From Microbispora hainanensis (GTDB lineage Bacteria > Actinomycetota > Actinomycetes > Streptosporangiales > Streptosporangiaceae), in NCBI RefSeq assembly GCF_006874475.1, contig NZ_VIRM01000051.1, positions 1 to 64,000 of the forward strand: 64,000 nt of DNA, in the 5' to 3' direction. A program made the position numbers and the translations under genes. This document shows positions 21,548 through 28,172 of the stretch, piece after piece. Numbering within the stretch: the first letter of the stretch is position 1; each line of letters opens with the position of its first letter. The notes under the pieces were generated by a model. That model ran no database searches. It saw only the letters and a list, made by a program, of their open reading frames with translations, and was not told the origin of the DNA.

Positions 21548-22459
21548 TCAGGACGTCGACTTCGCGAGCCGCGAACCCGTCATCAGGGCATAGACGATGA
21601 CGTTGTCGACATAGTGGCCAGTCGTGTGGTTGTAGGTGCCGCCACAGGTGATCAGCCTGAGCTCGGCGTTGTCGGCGTGGCCGTACACCCGGTTGGTGGG
21701 AAACGTTTGTTTGTCCGCCTGTTCGATCCCGCCCACCGTGAAGACGGCCACGGTGCCGTCGAGACGGACGACCTCGATCTTGTCGCCGTACTCCAGCTCG
21801 TGCAGGCGGCTGAAGACGGCGCCGCGCGTGGTGGTGTCCTTGTGGCCGAGCATGACGGCAGGGCCGGCCTCCCCCGCCGTCGGGCCGCCGCGATACCAGC
21901 CGACCAGGTTCGCGTTGCTGATCGGGGGCGTCTGGATCGCGCCGGAACGGTCGAGGCCGACCGACTTGATCGGCGCGTTGACGCCGATCTTGGGGATGAT
22001 CAGGCGCTTGGGCGTGGACGGCTGCATCGCGGGCGCGGCCGGGATCTTCGGGAGCGGCGGCGGCGCGGTGGCGACCGCCTGCGTCAGCGGCTGCCCGGCT
22101 CCGCCCGGCCCCACGGAGGGGGCGAGCCCGTCCTGCGGCGCCGCGAGCTTCAGCGTCGAACGCTCCGACGCGGCGTACTCGTCCGGATTGTTCACCATGA
22201 TCACTACGCCCACGATCATGATGACCAGGCCCACGATGGCCGCCGTGATCAGCAAGCGCCGGACGGCCTCCGCGCCGCTGCCGGGAGGCTTCTCCTCTGG
22301 CGGCGGAGGCGACGGCTGTACGGGCTGCATCTGGGGCATCATCACCGGTTGGAAGACCGGCTGGCCGTAAACCGGCTGTGGGTAGCCCTGCCCGCCCGGC
22401 CCGAGAGGCACGCCGTACGGCTGGCCCGGCGGGTACTGTCCAGGTGGCGGGGTGGTCAT
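21548..22459 (-). CDS. Class F sortase
   Basis: A 303-residue sortase with a cytoplasmic Pro/Gln/Gly-rich N-terminus, a membrane anchor (69-89), a stalk and an extracellular catalytic domain (about 150-300). Catalytic His206 lies in AVMLGHKDTTTRGAVF and Cys272 in LRLITCGGTYNH. Class F sortases of actinobacteria cleave C-terminal sorting signals and attach proteins to the cell wall. The first Arg after the Cys is near the C-terminus (SRLAK), so the usual third catalytic residue is not where expected. The gene starts 10 bases after the stop of a surface-protein gene, its probable substrate. Confidence 0.92.
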   Translation of the reverse strand: MTTPPPGQYPPGQPYGVPLGPGGQGYPQPVYGQPVFQPVMMPQMQPVQPSPPPPEEKPPGSGAEAVRRLLITAAIVGLVIMIVGVVIMVNNPDEYAASERSTLKLAAPQDGLAPSVGPGGAGQPLTQAVATAPPPLPKIPAAPAMQPSTPKRLIIPKIGVNAPIKSVGLDRSGAIQTPPISNANLVGWYRGGPTAGEAGPAVMLGHKDTTTRGAVFSRLHELEYGDKIEVVRLDGTVAVFTVGGIEQADKQTFPTNRVYGHADNAELRLITCGGTYNHTTGHYVDNVIVYALMTGSRLAKSTS

Positions 22460-22469
22460 GGCTCGCGTC

Positions 22470-23393
22470 CTACTGCCTCACCGGACGTCGCCGGGCCCGG
22501 AGCACGAGCCCGCCCGCGCCCGCCGCCAGCATGAGCGCGGTGCCGCTGAGGACGAAGAGCCGCGCGTCGGGGCCGGCGTCGCCTCCACCGCCGGTGGCCG
22601 CGCCGCCCCCGGGCGTGTTCTCGATCTGGGCGGACTTCGACTTCTTGGTCTTGACCGGCGTGGGCGACGCGAAGACCGTCTCGTACACCGTCCTGGTGTT
22701 ACGGGGCGTGGGCGAGGCGCTCGCGGAGGGGCTCGCGCTGGCACTGGCACTCGCGCTCGGGGACGCCGAGGGGCTCGCCACCGCGATCGTCGCGACGGCG
22801 GGCGCCGTGTTGGCGCCCGTGCTGGCGACCACGCAGTTGTAGAGCGCGGTGGGCGTCGTGGTGGTCGTGCCCGTGCCGGCGGGCGCGATCATACTGATCT
22901 TGAAGTCCTTCGCCGTCAGCACGACGGAGGTGGCCCCGCTTTGCGGTGTGACGGTCATCGTGGCCGTGGGAAGCGGCGGCATCGACCCCTGAGCCGCGAC
23001 GGCGGAGGTCAACGCTGCGCCGGTCGGCGAGGGCGTGGACACGCCCGCGGTCATGCCGGCCGGCAGCGCCGACGCCGACACGCTGGGCTGCAGCTCGATC
23101 TTCGCGCCGCTCGCGATCTCCACCGGCGCGGGGAACGCCGACGTGGTGACGGGCTGGACGCTCAGGGTCGCGGTGTACTGGGTGCCGGACACCGCCGTTG
23201 TGCTGGCGGTGAGCGTCACCGTGAAATCGTGCGTCACCGCAGCGCCACCCACGTTCGGAGTGCAGCTGTACGTCACGGTCTTCGTTTCGGCGTGCGCGCC
23301 GAGCGCGCTCAGGCCCAGGAGAAGGCCCGCGCTGACCACTCCGGCCGCGGCGGCCCTTCCGGCGACACGGCCCCGCGCCTTTGACTTCAGCAC
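22470..23393 (-). CDS. Secreted surface protein with C-terminal GGAxTG sorting-type signal
   Basis: A 307-residue protein: signal peptide (ending ALGAHA, about residue 36), a beta-rich domain beginning ETKTVTYSCTPNVGGAAVTH, a stalk of SPSASPSASASASASPSAS repeats, then GGAATGGGGDAGPDAR (from residue 263), a membrane segment and an RARRR tail. The end has the layout of a sortase signal, but with GGAATG in place of LPxTG. Two Cys (SCTP and YNC) may form a disulfide. The GTG at 23393 follows GGAGAG. It is paralogous to the gene at 23561-24826 and is followed after 10 bases by a sortase gene. Confidence 0.82.
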   Translation of the reverse strand: MLKSKARGRVAGRAAAAGVVSAGLLLGLSALGAHAETKTVTYSCTPNVGGAAVTHDFTVTLTASTTAVSGTQYTATLSVQPVTTSAFPAPVEIASGAKIELQPSVSASALPAGMTAGVSTPSPTGAALTSAVAAQGSMPPLPTATMTVTPQSGATSVVLTAKDFKISMIAPAGTGTTTTTPTALYNCVVASTGANTAPAVATIAVASPSASPSASASASASPSASASPTPRNTRTVYETVFASPTPVKTKKSKSAQIENTPGGGAATGGGGDAGPDARLFVLSGTALMLAAGAGGLVLRARRRPVRQ

Positions 23394-23560
23394 TGACGTC
23401 TCTCCACTTCGATGCTCGCAGTCAACAGGCGTACCAGCATTCCAGCGTACGGTCACAGTCAGGTAGAGATCTTACGGACAAATACCCCAAGACCGCCTCC
23501 TATTGCTCAAACATTCTCCCGTTCTCGGCATGTCCGCGTCAGCCGGACGCTAGCCGGACG

Positions 23561-24826
23561 CTAATGCCTGCCGTACGAGCCGGGGTTGAGGCCGAACCGC
23601 CGCAGCAGCAGCCCTCCGGCCGCCGCGGCGGCCATCAGCGCCAGGCCGGTGAGCACGACGAGGCGGGCGTCCGGGCCCGCGTCGCCCCCGCCCCCGGTCT
23701 GCGCGCCGCCGAGCGGGGTCGTCTTGATCTGCTTGGTCGCCGTGCGGGAGGCCGTCGCGGTCGCCGTGACCGTGGTGGTCGTCGTGGTCCTCGGGCTCGG
23801 GGTCGGGCTCGTCGATGCCGCCGCGCTGGGGCTGGGCGAGGCGCTCGCGTCGTCGTCGGTGTCGGACGGGCTCGGCGAAGCCGAGGGAGACGGCGAGGCG
23901 GACGAGGAGGAGGCGACGGCGAACGCGAGCGACGCCCTGCTCGCGGACGCCGGCAGCGTGCACGTGTAGAGCGCCTCGCCCTCGCCTGTGGTGTCCCCCG
24001 CGGCGCGCAGCTTCAGCGTGAAGTTTCCGGCCGCGACCCCGACCGTGCCCGTCGCCGTCGGCGTCAGCGTGACGAGCAGTTGGGGGATCGGCGTCAGCGT
24101 TGCCGACGGCGAGAGTGACGACGCGAGCACCGTGGAGGCGGACGGGCTCAGCGTGATCGCCGCAGGACTCTCCTCCTGCGTGCCGTTCTCCGTGTCGGTG
24201 CCGTTCTCCGGTTCAGCACTGGCGGAGGGTGACGGGCTCGGGGATGCCTCCGTCGCCGACTCGTTGCCGTCAGGAGAAGGCGATACCGACGCGGAAGGCG
24301 ATGCGGACGCGGAAGGCGATGCGGACGGAGAGACTGACGGAGAGACGGAGGGGGAGGGCGACGGGCTCGGCGTCGGGGTGGCACTGGGACTGGCACTGGG
24401 ACTGGCACTGGGACTGGGGCTGGGGCTGGGGCTGGGGCTCGGCGACGCGTCCGCGGGCTCGCTCACGACGGGAGCGCCGGTCACCTCCACCACACCCTCG
24501 GCGATCATTACGTCGTTCGCCGCGACGCCCGTCGCCGGCGCCACCATCGCGCTCTGGCCGTCGGACGGCGTCGCGGGAGCGATCTGCCAGGTCACGGTCG
24601 CCGCGCTGCTCACCACCGGGTCGGCGGGCCCGACCAGGGTCACGTTCACCGGGTAGGTCGCGGCGGCGGCGCTGCCGGCCGGAGTGCAGGAATACAGCAC
24701 GGTCGTGTTCTCGGTCTCGGCGAGCACCGGCCACGTCATCAGGGCCAGCGCGGCCGCCGCTCCCGCCGCCGATCGGGCCGCGATGCGACGCCGGGCACTC
24801 CTGCGCCGGGCACTGGGGTCGGGCAC
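23561..24826 (-). CDS. Secreted surface protein with long Ser/Pro stalk and GGAxTG sorting-type signal
   Basis: A 421-residue protein: signal peptide (to about VLAE, residue 36), a domain starting NTTVLYSCTPAGSAAAATYP, a Ser/Pro/Ala stalk of about 80 residues, a second domain (ITLSPSASTVLASSLSPSAT to ALYTCTLPAS), another stalk, then GGAQTGGGGDAGPDAR (from 373), a membrane segment and LLRRFG. The TGGGGDAGPDAR block is identical to that of the neighbour at 22470-23393. GTG at 24826 follows AGGAGAG. It may be a substrate of either sortase in this locus. Ligand unknown. Confidence 0.82.
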   Translation of the reverse strand: MPDPSARRRSARRRIAARSAAGAAAALALMTWPVLAETENTTVLYSCTPAGSAAAATYPVNVTLVGPADPVVSSAATVTWQIAPATPSDGQSAMVAPATGVAANDVMIAEGVVEVTGAPVVSEPADASPSPSPSPSPSPSASPSASPSATPTPSPSPSPSVSPSVSPSASPSASASPSASVSPSPDGNESATEASPSPSPSASAEPENGTDTENGTQEESPAAITLSPSASTVLASSLSPSATLTPIPQLLVTLTPTATGTVGVAAGNFTLKLRAAGDTTGEGEALYTCTLPASASRASLAFAVASSSSASPSPSASPSPSDTDDDASASPSPSAAASTSPTPSPRTTTTTTVTATATASRTATKQIKTTPLGGAQTGGGGDAGPDARLVVLTGLALMAAAAAGGLLLRRFGLNPGSYGRH

Positions 24827-24975
24827 GACGTCTCTCCTGCCACCACAGTCACGTACACGTGGCGAACAGTCTCCCAGGAGTTGACCATCGACATAACCGG
24901 CGGGCGGCCTATGTCAGGAAATTCCCAGGGAACCTTCATCGTCCCGCAACAGTAGGGAGGGTGGAGGTGTTGACC

Positions 24976-25755
24976 ATGAGACGACTGCTCGTGGCCCTCG
25001 CGGCGATGGCGGTGATCCTCGCGCCGTCCCTGCCCGCGCACGCGCGGGCCGGCTTCTGGGCCGTGACCGAGCTCGACCCGCTTCCCGCCACGGTGCGGCC
25101 CGATGTCTCCTACACGGTGGGCTTCTGGGTCCTTCAGCACGGCACCCATCCGTACGACGGCCCCGGCGACCTCGAACCGATCGCCCTGCGCCTGATCGGA
25201 AAGGACGGCACGACCCTGACGTTCGACGGGACGCCGTTGCCGGAACCCGCGCACTACGCCACGTCCATCACCGTGCCGGCCGGACGGTGGCGGGTCGAAG
25301 GTGTGCAGGGCATGTTCGCGACGTACGAGATCGGCACGCTCACGGTGCCGGGCGGGCTGAAGACGGCTCCGCCGCCGTTCCCGGTGCCCGTCGGCATCGT
25401 GATCAAGGATTATTGGGGGCCGGTGAAACCACCCGGGTTCCCCTGGAAGGCGACGAACGTCGTTCCCAACCGCCTGCCGACGGCGACGTCCGCGGCGTCC
25501 GCGCAGCCGGCCGGTGTATCCCAGTCGGCCCCCGCCCCCCAGGTGGTCCGGGCCGCCCCGCCGACGCGGCTGGCCGCGGCCGGCGGCGACTCCTCGCCGT
25601 GGCGTCAGCCGTACGCGCTGGTGGCCGTCGCGGTGGCGGCGGTGGCGGGCACGCTGCTGGTCCAGCGCGCTGCCCGGACGGTCGTACGGCGAAGGCCGCA
25701 CGATCCGCCCGAGCGCGAGGAGCGGGAGGGCGAAGAGGTGATCAGCATGGGCTGA
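24976..25755 (+). CDS. Membrane-anchored extracellular protein, possibly YtkA/CopC-like
   Basis: A 259-residue protein: signal peptide (MRRLLVALAAMAVILAPSLP, cleavage near AHA), an extracellular beta-sandwich-like domain (VSYTVGFWVLQHGTHPYDGP ... HYATSITVPAGRWRVEGVQG), a Pro/Ala linker, one membrane segment (about 210-230) and a charged cytoplasmic tail. The His-containing domain resembles YtkA/CopC-like folds, but only by general pattern. In-frame GTG codons at 24961 and 24967 are alternative starts; the ATG has GGAGG upstream. It points opposite to the flanking sortase genes and ends 12 bases from the second sortase. Confidence 0.75.
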   Translation: MRRLLVALAAMAVILAPSLPAHARAGFWAVTELDPLPATVRPDVSYTVGFWVLQHGTHPYDGPGDLEPIALRLIGKDGTTLTFDGTPLPEPAHYATSITVPAGRWRVEGVQGMFATYEIGTLTVPGGLKTAPPPFPVPVGIVIKDYWGPVKPPGFPWKATNVVPNRLPTATSAASAQPAGVSQSAPAPQVVRAAPPTRLAAAGGDSSPWRQPYALVAVAVAAVAGTLLVQRAARTVVRRRPHDPPEREEREGEEVISMG

Positions 25756-25767
25756 TCACCCCTGTGA

Positions 25768-26703
25768 TCACTTGGTCTGCGTCAGCGTCGCGTAGACGAT
25801 GATGTTGTCGGTGTAGTGGTGCTGCTTGGCGTTGTAGACCCCGCCACAGGTGATCAGCCGCAGCGACGACGTGATCGTGTTGCTGTAGACCCGCTTGGTC
25901 GGGAAGGTCGACTTGCTGACCTGCTCGATCCCGTCAACGGTGAAGATCGCCATCTTGCCGTCCGCGCGGAGAACGGCGATCTTGTTGCCCCGCTTGAGCT
26001 CGCGCAGACGGCTGAAGACGGCGGCGCCCTTGCGGGTGTTCACGTGTCCGAGGATGACCGCCGGCCCCTGGTCGCCGGGGGCCGGCCCGTAGCGGTACCA
26101 GCCGGTCAGGCTGGGCTTGCTCAGCGGGGGCGCCTGGATCACGCCGGACTTGTCCACGCCCACCGAGCCCACCACGGCCTTCACGCCGATGGCGGGAATG
26201 CTGATCTTGAGCGGCCGGCCGGCGGCCTTCTTGCTCGTCGTCTTCTTCGCGCCGGACGACGAGGACGACAGCGGCTTCGAGGACGACGAGGCCGCGCTCG
26301 TGAGGGTCAGCGGGGCGATCGGCTGCAGCGCGGGATCCGGCGGCGGCGCGGTCGGGTCGGCGGCCGTGAGCGGCACGCCCGGCCCGCCCGGGCCCACGGC
26401 CGGCGGCAGGAAGGCCACGTTGCCCGCGCCCCGGACGTTGACCGCGTCCGGAACCTGCCCGCTCTGCTGCGGGTCCGAGGGGCTCAGCACGACGAGCATC
26501 CCGGCCATCACGGCCGCGATGCCGCCGAACGACCCGGCCACGAGCAGCGTCGCGAGGACCGGCTGGGGCAGCGGCTTGCGCGCCTTCTTGGCGTCGGCCA
26601 CCGCACCGGTCTGCTCGGGAGCACCGCTCTGCTGGGGAACGCCGCTCTGCTGGGGAGCGCCACCGTGCTCGGGAGCGCCACCGTCAGGAATGCCGTCGTT
26701 CAT
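25768..26703 (-). CDS. Class F sortase
   Basis: A 311-residue sortase paralogous to that at 21548-22459. It has a cytoplasmic tail with GGAPQQSGVPQQSGAPEQ repeats, a membrane anchor (about 49-73), a Ser/Lys-rich stalk and a catalytic domain with His220 in AVILGHVNTRKGAAVF and Cys286 in LRLITCGGVYNA. No Arg at all follows the Cys (the end reads HHYTDNIIVYATLTQTK), so the canonical catalytic Arg is absent from its usual strand. The ATG at 26703 has GGAGG six bases upstream. It starts 11 bases after the surface-protein gene upstream. Confidence 0.92.
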   Translation of the reverse strand: MNDGIPDGGAPEHGGAPQQSGVPQQSGAPEQTGAVADAKKARKPLPQPVLATLLVAGSFGGIAAVMAGMLVVLSPSDPQQSGQVPDAVNVRGAGNVAFLPPAVGPGGPGVPLTAADPTAPPPDPALQPIAPLTLTSAASSSSKPLSSSSSGAKKTTSKKAAGRPLKISIPAIGVKAVVGSVGVDKSGVIQAPPLSKPSLTGWYRYGPAPGDQGPAVILGHVNTRKGAAVFSRLRELKRGNKIAVLRADGKMAIFTVDGIEQVSKSTFPTKRVYSNTITSSLRLITCGGVYNAKQHHYTDNIIVYATLTQTK

Positions 26704-26714
26704 CGTCATCCTCC

Positions 26715-28172
26715 TCAGCCCCGCTCGCCCGAGTGGGCCGCCCTGCGCCGGAGCATTGCCACACCGCTGAGCATGCCGATCAGCAACAACGCGCCGCCCG
26801 AGCCGATCAGCAGCATGCCCGAGGACGACACACGCTCCGGAGCCTCACCGGTCTGCGCGCCGCCCTGCGGCGTGATCGCCACCTGCGCCACGCTCGGCGT
26901 CGCGGTCAGCGTCACCGTCCTCGTCGCCGTCGGCGACGGACTGCCCTGCGTCACCACCGCCGTCACGATGTAGTGCTGCGTCTGCACGGCGGCCGGCGAC
27001 GGACTGGCCGACGGAGAAGGCGAAGGCGTGGCCGAGGGCGAAGGCGACGGGGAAGGCGACTCGTCGCCCGGGTCCTCGTCGGTGGGACTGGCCGAAGGGC
27101 TCGGCGACGAGCTCGGCGAAGCGGACGCGTCAGGCGAACTGTCCGGCGACGGACTGGCCGTGTTGTCGTCACCGCCCCCGATCTCCACCTGGATGGCGCC
27201 CGGCGCGTTGGCGAGGGTGCACTCGGCGCGGTACTCCTTCGGCGGATTGACCAGATCACGAGTGATCACGCGGAAGGCGTCGAGTTGGCCCGCCTTGGCG
27301 TCCTGGACGTTCTTGATCGTGATCGTGTGCTGCGCGTACTTCAGACCGTGGAACTTCCACAGGGTCTCGCCGCCCTTGTGGGCATCGTTCACGAGAGTGC
27401 CGTCGGGGTTTCGCGAGGGGTCCACCCGCGGCGGAGTCGCCGCCTGGCCGTCGATGGCGATGTCTATCGGTCCCGCGTCCCGGTCCTTTTGCGCGACGTA
27501 TTCGATGCCGGTGCCCGTGAAGGTGTAGGACGCCCAGGCGTCCTTGTCCGTGGTCCGATGCAGGTCGAGGTGATAGTCGTTGTCCTCGCTCGGCCGGTCG
27601 TTGAGGTCCTCCCAGCCGCCGCTGTAGGTGATCGCCGGATCGTCGTCGTTGACCATGACTTCAGAGGCCGCCGGCCGGAAATCGACGAACAACGTGTTGC
27701 CGGGCCGCACCGTGACAGTGCCTGCCCGGTCGGTGTGGCCGAAGTCCGAAATGCCGACGGGCAGATTGAGCGGGACGCCCTTGTCAAGCGGCCCCGACTG
27801 CTCCACGGTTCCCTTCGGCTGAAGCTGGCCGATCCAGCTGCCGCTGATGTTGGCTCGGCCGGTCACATCGATCCGGCCACCCTTGGGCATGTACGCGGGC
27901 GATCCGAAGCGCGTCGCGTCCTTGTAGTTCAGTTTCCACTCGACGTTGAGCGGGTCACCGACGTTGAGCGTCGTCGGGACGGTGAGCCTCGTCCTGAGGT
28001 TCACGGTCCCGGAGCCCGTTCCGGCGATGCCGTTGTTGCAGGTGTAGTCGACGACGAGAGTGGCGGTAGCGGCGCCTGCTGTCATCGACGGCCCGACGAC
28101 GAACGCCGTTCCGGCCAGGCCGAGGGCCAGAGCGGCCATGGTCCTAGGGAGACCAGCTTTCCACCGAATCAC
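26715..28172 (-). CDS. Large secreted surface protein with GGAxTG sorting-type signal
   Basis: A 485-residue protein: signal peptide (to about TAGAA, residue 35), two or more beta-rich domains (TLVVDYTCNNGIAGTGSGTV; ASYTFTGTGIEYVAQKDRDA, which looks like a carbohydrate-binding-type jelly roll), a Ser/Pro/Asp stalk (about 345-395), then GGAQTGEAPERVSSSG (from 437), a membrane segment and LRRRAAHSGERG. The early domain ending with LFVDFRPAA resembles DUF6801-like surface domains, but this is uncertain. The GTG at 28172 has CGGAG upstream. It directly precedes the second sortase gene. Confidence 0.82.
   Translation of the reverse strand: MIRWKAGLPRTMAALALGLAGTAFVVGPSMTAGAATATLVVDYTCNNGIAGTGSGTVNLRTRLTVPTTLNVGDPLNVEWKLNYKDATRFGSPAYMPKGGRIDVTGRANISGSWIGQLQPKGTVEQSGPLDKGVPLNLPVGISDFGHTDRAGTVTVRPGNTLFVDFRPAASEVMVNDDDPAITYSGGWEDLNDRPSEDNDYHLDLHRTTDKDAWASYTFTGTGIEYVAQKDRDAGPIDIAIDGQAATPPRVDPSRNPDGTLVNDAHKGGETLWKFHGLKYAQHTITIKNVQDAKAGQLDAFRVITRDLVNPPKEYRAECTLANAPGAIQVEIGGGDDNTASPSPDSSPDASASPSSSPSPSASPTDEDPGDESPSPSPSPSATPSPSPSASPSPAAVQTQHYIVTAVVTQGSPSPTATRTVTLTATPSVAQVAITPQGGAQTGEAPERVSSSGMLLIGSGGALLLIGMLSGVAMLRRRAAHSGERG

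Follow-up and report, generated by a model that had tools for sequence, protein, structure and literature searches.

The window analysed here is the whole stretch of 64,000 nucleotides from position 1 to 64,000 of contig NZ_VIRM01000051.1 of the soil actinomycete Microbispora hainanensis. At 21548..28172 it contains two class F sortase genes and three genes for secreted proteins, which we call sub1, sub2 and sub3. The minus-strand order is sub3, class F sortase a, sub2, sub1 and class F sortase b, with one plus-strand gene lying between sortase a and sub2. Taking our best explanation as a whole, we consider it quite probable that the locus consists of two class F sortase/substrate units (Table 1).

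Each of the three secreted proteins has a signal peptide-like hydrophobic start, a Ser/Pro/Thr-rich spacer and a C-terminal PxGGAxTG motif followed by a helix and a basic tail. The C-termini read ...TPGGGAATGGGGDAGPDAR, helix and RARRRPVRQ in sub1; ...TPLGGAQTGGGGDAGPDAR, helix and RRFGLNPGSYGRH in sub2; and ...TPQGGAQTGEAPER, helix and RRRAAHSGERG in sub3. An initial annotation, made from the sequence alone, had described these ends as GGAATG, GGAQTG and GGAQTG with a helix and basic tail, and all three were confirmed; the conserved part, P-x-G-G-A-x-T-G, starts two residues earlier, at a Pro. Numbering the motif P7 to P1′ around the T–G bond, T–G followed by a hydrophobic helix and a basic tail is the layout of LPxTG and LAxTG signals, but P4 is Gly in all three proteins and the Leu of those signals is absent. 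The distances to the sortase genes, previously given as 10–11 bp, are 10 bp from the end of sub1 to the start of sortase b and 5 bp from the end of sub3 to the start of sortase a, where the sub3 stop codon overlaps a ribosome-site-like stretch, GAGGAGG.

Table 1. Features of the sortase locus (positions in the window; Cys-4 is the residue four places before the catalytic Cys).
Feature	Position	Strand	Description	Basis
sub3	26715..28172	-	Secreted protein; hydrophobic start, ectodomain, Ser/Pro-rich spacer, PQGGAQTG, helix, basic tail	Orthologs in 8/8 Microbispora loci
Putative sorting motif of sub3	26847..26870	-	PQGGAQTG (P7–P1′)	8/8 positions invariant, 9 rows
Class F sortase a	25768..26709	-	Catalytic His222 and Cys288 present; Asn302 replaces the catalytic Arg; Cys-4 is Arg284	Profile match and alignment
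sub2	23561..24826	-	Secreted protein; C-terminus PLGGAQTGGGGDAGPDAR, helix, basic tail	Sequence and Microbispora orthologs
Putative sorting motif of sub2	23693..23716	-	PLGGAQTG	7/8 positions invariant, 9 rows
sub1	22470..23393	-	Secreted protein; C-terminus PGGGAATGGGGDAGPDAR, helix, basic tail	Sequence and Microbispora orthologs
Putative sorting motif of sub1	22590..22613	-	PGGGAATG	7/8 positions invariant, 9 rows
Class F sortase b	21548..22459	-	Catalytic His and Cys present; Asn replaces the catalytic Arg; Cys-4 is Arg	Profile match and alignment

The assignment of both enzymes to class F, also made in the initial annotation, is borne out by the NCBIfam class F profile NF033748, which they match with 203.3 and 195.1 bits (cutoff 166), while falling far under the NCBIfam cutoffs for classes C, D and E. 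Each has one hydrophobic N-terminal helix and a Pfam PF04203 domain (78.8 and 78.7 bits). The catalytic His and Cys are present and the catalytic Arg is replaced by Asn. Since an Arg-to-Asn change in actinobacterial class F sortases has already been reported, in a 2020 paper that cites an earlier study (PMC6998099; papers identified by PMC number are cited here from excerpts), the class F membership of the two enzymes stands despite the lost Arg.

We examined conservation in the eight Microbispora loci that were returned as the nearest named relatives. Both sortases and all three putative substrates are present in 8/8 loci, and GGA[AQ]TG ends are found in 24/24 substrate orthologs. Column conservation is 94–100% in the motif (P7–P1′), 78–84% in the ectodomains and 89–94% in the helix and tail. 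A profile built from 35 tails, the three window tails being among its training rows, gave four strong matches in the 8.7 Mb genome: those three proteins and an orphan GGAATG protein on contig C113 (L181, 5845-7053), which was not a training row, matches at E=6e-13 and ends in PVGGAATGGGGEAGPDGR. No class F gene was called in the 12 kb around the orphan. The 8 matches ranked below it (E 0.002 to 0.76) align no earlier than model position 10 and so lack the motif. A chance match was rejected on the basis of the 24/24 orthologs, of this genome search and of the comparison with shuffled and distal sequences described below.

Besides a single class E sortase (contig C13; 225.6 bits, cutoff 160), the same genome encodes three class F sortases that exceed the profile cutoff. 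The third class F gene, on contig C112 (L002, L196), follows a small secreted protein ending in RAPHAGGGGTAAGG. Tails of this type are also seen in related genomes (L182-L195). Downstream of the third class F gene lies tsaB (173.8 bits against TIGR03725). The LPXTG anchor profile TIGR01167 gave weak matches in the genome (best E 0.099; 4/21 at or above its low cutoff) and was useless for counting.

The linkage was then surveyed from the enzyme side, blind to the motif. NF033748 was searched against 396 genomes of the phylum, 60 of which had matches over cutoff, and against 61 genomes of the same family (50 over cutoff). The loci comprised 100 places from the phylum, 40 stretches from the family and the genome itself, short loci and the 8 Microbispora loci; together they hold 195 distinct class F genes, near relatives included and thus not independent, of which 194 have more than 400 bp of upstream sequence. 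A second gene caller preferred antisense frames over a Ser/Pro-rich substrate, and we therefore took as candidates all open reading frames (ORFs) encoding a C-terminal helix and basic tail. Such a predicted tail ORF lies on the same strand within 250 bp upstream of 152/194 class F genes, never more than one per gene. Simple patterns describe most of the 152 (GxxxTG in 95, Gxxx[AS]G in 24, [AT]GGGGT in 20), and the 13 outside them include several visible variants. On a graded scale, 145/152 reach a score of at least 10 for P-x-G-[GA]-[AVP]-x-[TA]-G or something near it. Tail ORFs within 2.5 kb but not directly upstream reach that score in 28/82 cases, and a scoring motif protein lies within 3 kb of 18 of the 42 genes without a tail ORF directly upstream, for a total of 163/194.

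Aligning the upstream tails on P1′ left 150 rows, two having been dropped for low score. Pro occupies P7 in 143 of these under a rule that rewards it; an earlier anchoring rule that did not reward it gave P7 Pro in 116/127, with 19 contexts unanchored. P5 is Gly in 126 rows; P4 is Gly in 90, Ala in 34 and Ser in 10; P3 is Ala in 57, Val in 56 and Pro in 28; and P1 is Thr in 106. The remaining rows at P1 include 38 with Ala (L203, L110 and others), which would be unusual in a sortase signal. Based on these counts, the GGAxTG type is the usual putative signal beside the actinobacterial class F sortases surveyed.

These data also bear on a simpler account, in which the GGxTG stretch serves only as a flexible linker, rich in Gly, that leads into a conventional membrane anchor, and the proteins remain membrane-bound with no sortase acting on them. 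The high Gly/Ser/Pro content near the membrane would fit a linker, and in Microbispora conservation of the helix and tail is close to that of the motif. A linker would not, however, lead one to expect preferred residues at P7, P5, P4, P3, P1 and P1′, nor linkage to class F sortases, and the motif score is reached by just 6.6% of same-composition shuffled contexts (20 shuffles each) and by 0/37 tail ORFs more than 2.5 kb away. We regard the linker as very unlikely.

Starting from the motif gave the same association. The NCBIfam family NF058571 (GVDTG_CTERM) has 80 matches at E<=1e-4 in 49/396 genomes of the phylum. At least 57/80 have a class F sortase, among those listed, no more than 3 kb away, where about 0.22 would be expected; 46 of these 57 sit upstream of the sortase gene on its own strand, 10 upstream on the opposite strand and 1 downstream. 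Of the 49 genomes, 47 are also among those with any class F match, and the remaining two (G312, G331) have weak GVDTG matches lacking the first model columns. The initial annotation had made its proposal depend on enrichment of such ends beside class F sortases in related genomes, and from both starting points the enrichment is clear. On the sortase tree, residue changes are fewer than in 200 shuffles at P1 (14 v. 34.0; 144 rows), P3 (24 v. 62.5; 141 rows) and P4 (16 v. 39.9; 134 rows): enzyme/substrate pairs are inherited together, and motif type goes with sortase clade.

As a control we examined 30 class E loci from the same family, with about 1.5 kb on each side. They contain 4 tail ORFs, none of them Gly-rich, and one has LAKTG 3 bp upstream of the sortase gene; the method therefore detects known signals. 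The catalytic Arg is kept in all 26 of the 30 loci whose active-site stretch was readable. The control speaks to the suggestion that sub1, sub2 and sub3 are LAxTG-like substrates of the class E sortase on contig C13, and that the class F genes are adjacent for another reason. P3 Ala and T–G fit LAxTG and the genome does have that enzyme, but P4 is Gly rather than Leu, none of the 4 class E tail ORFs is of the GGAxTG kind, and the places where the motif occurs follow class F. This makes a class E assignment highly improbable. Of the earlier proposal that the signal is a variant of LAxTG recognised by class F sortases, the linkage to class F has stood, but the description as a local variant of LAxTG, the class E signal, has not. 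A shared TGGGGDAGPDAR block, which had been taken as support for the signal, is found mainly in partners from a single sortase clade and is not general.

We next consider the missing catalytic Arg. Across 194 aligned class F sortases this position never holds Arg: 191 have Asn, 2 have Ser and 1 has Asp. His is found in 193/193 and Cys in 194/194 filled columns, LRLITCGG ranks with the best-conserved strands, and Arg occupies Cys-4 in 181/194. A 2021 paper states that all native sortases have the Arg and shows the structure 5UUS as a class F enzyme with a conserved triad (PMC8361268). The prevalence of Asn could mean that, instead of acting as transpeptidases, these enzymes bind to the signal or cleave it so that the protein is released into the medium. 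Against this, the His and Cys are retained throughout and the surrounding strand is highly conserved, and we judge such a role unlikely.

A wider set of 269 distinct class F-like ORFs falls into three groups. The first, the kind found in the window (n=210), has Arg, His or Lys at Cys-4 and Asn, rarely Ser or Asp, at the Arg site; a middle group (n=46) has a non-Arg residue at the Arg site and another residue at Cys-4; and the third (n=13) keeps the Arg and includes one ORF, L310, that probably lies outside class F. Aligned tail partners were obtained for 162, 25 and 5 of these, respectively; another 75 ORFs lacked a partner, and 2 failed to anchor. [LMV]PxTG is found in 5/5 Arg-type partners (MPETG and MPDTG on two Planococcus plasmids, VPRTG in Virgibacillus, LPATG in Thermomicrobium and LPITG in a remote actinobacterium, whose partner also has PPVTG nearer the helix) versus 2/187 others (Fisher p=1e-8, kinship ignored). 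Both exceptions were scored on a PPxSG or PPxTG stretch picked by the script, with a motif of the other type located closer to the helix. P4 is Gly, Ala or Ser in 0/5 Arg-type partners versus 160/187 others. In the middle group (n=25), P6 is Pro in 17, P3 Val in 16 and P5 Gly in 4, the last compared with 125/162 in the window group (p=5e-9, kinship ignored). The Arg side represents about four lineages, and the grouping was defined on the same data as those on which it was tested. Six Arg-bearing sortases from remote actinobacteria (L292-L296) have no tail partner and neither support nor contradict the pattern.

Two later cases fit it. A distant class F-like Asn-type sortase on a Cutibacterium acnes plasmid (66 bits), found after the rule was formed, lies 65 bp after a surface protein ending in PAPSGGVQTGD, and an Asn enzyme on a viral contig (L369) lies beside PVGGVVTG. 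The viral contigs (IMG/VR, L369-L394) were searched with the pattern L[RN][LV][IV]TC[GA]G; most of their sortases have Asn at the Arg site, with Gln in L393 and L394 and Ser in L372. Such enzymes might have host proteins as their targets. A search of viral contigs for relatives of the Planococcus enzyme gave none. We also observed proteins annotated in their records as prealbumin-like, and lacking a C-terminal helix, directly before Asn-type class F-like sortases (L352, 1625-2872; L397, 1971-2624).

Across these loci, Asn-type enzymes are accompanied by a Gly-rich signal and Arg-keeping class F-like enzymes by [LMV]PxTG, an association that is possibly new. It may further be, and this we propose tentatively, that the actinobacterial class F sortases form a mechanistically separate branch in which the Arg on strand 8 became Asn and an Arg later arose at Cys-4 (LRLITCGG), while the signal shifted from [LM]PxTG through P-x-[AG]-V-x-[TA]-G to P-x-G-[GA]-[AVP]-x-[TA]-G, with Arg-keeping relatives still using [LMV]PxTG. 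If this is true, triad and signal co-evolved, and P1 Ala breaks another rule of sortase substrates. The Arg-type enzymes have class F as their best match, yet at 82 to 129.5 bits (four checked) they lie below the cutoff of 166 and are class F relatives rather than certain members, which lowers the odds of this scenario.

Models of SrtE1 place the P4 Leu in a pocket formed by the strand 6–7 loop, strand 7 and strand 8 (PMC5148588). In our survey the 6–7 loop of class F reads K-x-x-F-P-x-x-x-V-Y, with K in 173, F in 186, P in 190, V in 186 and Y in 188 of 194 sequences. The five Arg-type rows differ at the K, F and V-Y positions, four keep the Pro, and Cys-4 is Asn, Thr or Ser. The altered loop and the new Arg at Cys-4 would fill the P4 pocket, leaving room for Gly or Ala only, and recognition would move to the upstream positions P5 and P7.

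We propose the following sequence of events at the locus. Signal peptides would export sub1, sub2 and sub3, and the C-terminal helix and basic tail would hold them in the membrane. The adjacent class F sortase would there recognise P-x-G-G-A-x-T-G; its Cys would most likely cut between T and G, and the enzyme would then transfer the protein to the cell wall. Both sub2 and the orphan on contig C113 would most likely be served by sortase b, whose partner shares the TGGGGxAGPD block. Recognition by the adjacent sortase is part of the joint explanation that we rated as quite probable above, and its observed basis consists of the gene content, the conservation, the linkage seen from both starting points and the way in which motif type is inherited with sortase clade.

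Several observations weigh against this proposal. With the catalytic Arg missing, activity is not certain. The class F enzyme of P. acnes uses LPQTGE in vitro (PMC7451113), and deletion of all four Actinoplanes class F sortases brought no change in the phenotypes looked at (PMC13251363). For 31 of the 194 class F genes there is no partner that reaches the motif score. In 24 cases nothing of the kind occurs inside 3 kb (for 3 of them the available sequence is shorter than that), and in the other 7 the upstream tail ORF scores under 10 (5 at 9.5). The survey counts include near relatives, and their tail ORFs are predicted. P2, expected to be free, tracks the sortase tree as well (55 v. 102.8 changes), and joint inheritance alone is therefore no proof of recognition. 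At distant Asn-type loci in Tsukamurella and Amycolatopsis the surface-type neighbour lacks a C-terminal helix; the partner of an Asn-type enzyme on an Arthrobacter plasmid (L354) ends in VVAETG, near LAxTG; and 22 of 24 distinct class F-like sortases on viral contigs have no motif protein beside them, while 2 do.

Two further features of the locus deserve mention. The plus-strand gene between the sortase units (24961-25755) encodes a secreted protein with a hydrophobic start, a C-terminal helix and a longer tail of mixed charge; it lacks a GGxTG motif and has no Pfam match to E=1 and no NCBIfam match to E=0.01. The ectodomain of sub3 weakly resembles Pfam CE2_N: 7/9 orthologs match at E<=0.1 (best E 0.00027), and the window protein scores 18 bits, below the cutoff of 27.9. 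We also considered a GlyGly-CTERM/rhombosortase system; no such family appeared in the NCBIfam scan of the three proteins to E=1, and rhombosortase was not searched for.

The pairing of substrate and enzyme thus appears real and well supported by the sequence comparisons, and it is the rule beside the actinobacterial class F sortases surveyed. Class F is common in actinobacteria, with five members predicted in S. coelicolor (PMC5148588), and excerpts of papers from 2020 to 2026 call its roles unknown or unsettled (PMC6998099, PMC13251363, PMC13257024). The signal is a concrete candidate for class F targets, and its consensus makes individual proteins testable at once. The split between Arg and Asn enzymes provides a natural experiment on P4 choice by sortases, and protein ligation could benefit from a signal that differs from LPxTG. 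In the literature, subscription papers not being covered, we found no description of the signal, and "GVDTG" occurred in no paper that also named a sortase.

Among known systems, Actinoplanes missouriensis has class F sortases SrtF1-4, two of which adjoin secreted proteins with a helix and basic tail, AMIS_11010 and AMIS_36440 (PMC13251363). According to excerpts of that 2026 paper, its authors found no known pentapeptide in the two proteins and did not study them; this pair is among those to which the consensus can be applied. SrtF of P. acnes (C. acnes), whose reported signal LPQTGE was noted above, is likewise called class F (PMC7451113), and so is PDB 5UUS (PMC8361268), which matches the class F profile weakly and not via the Cys (E=0.0018, profile 39-107). 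The class E system of S. coelicolor, SrtE1 with LAxTG (PMC5148588), resembles the window locus in P3 Ala, the T–G bond, the helix, the basic tail and its actinobacterial host, but has P4 Leu and the catalytic Arg where the window locus has P4 Gly and Asn. A close likeness is also seen in GVDTG_CTERM, the "GVDTG sorting domain" of NCBIfam release 20, which has the same layout of G-V/A-x-T-G, helix and basic tail. In a protein scan it scores the C-terminal parts of sub1, sub2 and sub3 at 14.9, 23.6 and 17.0 bits (cutoff 29), and in a genome scan sub2 reaches 28.7, or 29 with frame context. The kind of signal is not new, as NCBIfam already names it; what is new is mainly its widened and quantified form, with Pro at P7, Gly at P5, Ala, Val or Pro at P3 and Thr or Ala at P1, and its association with the lost catalytic Arg.

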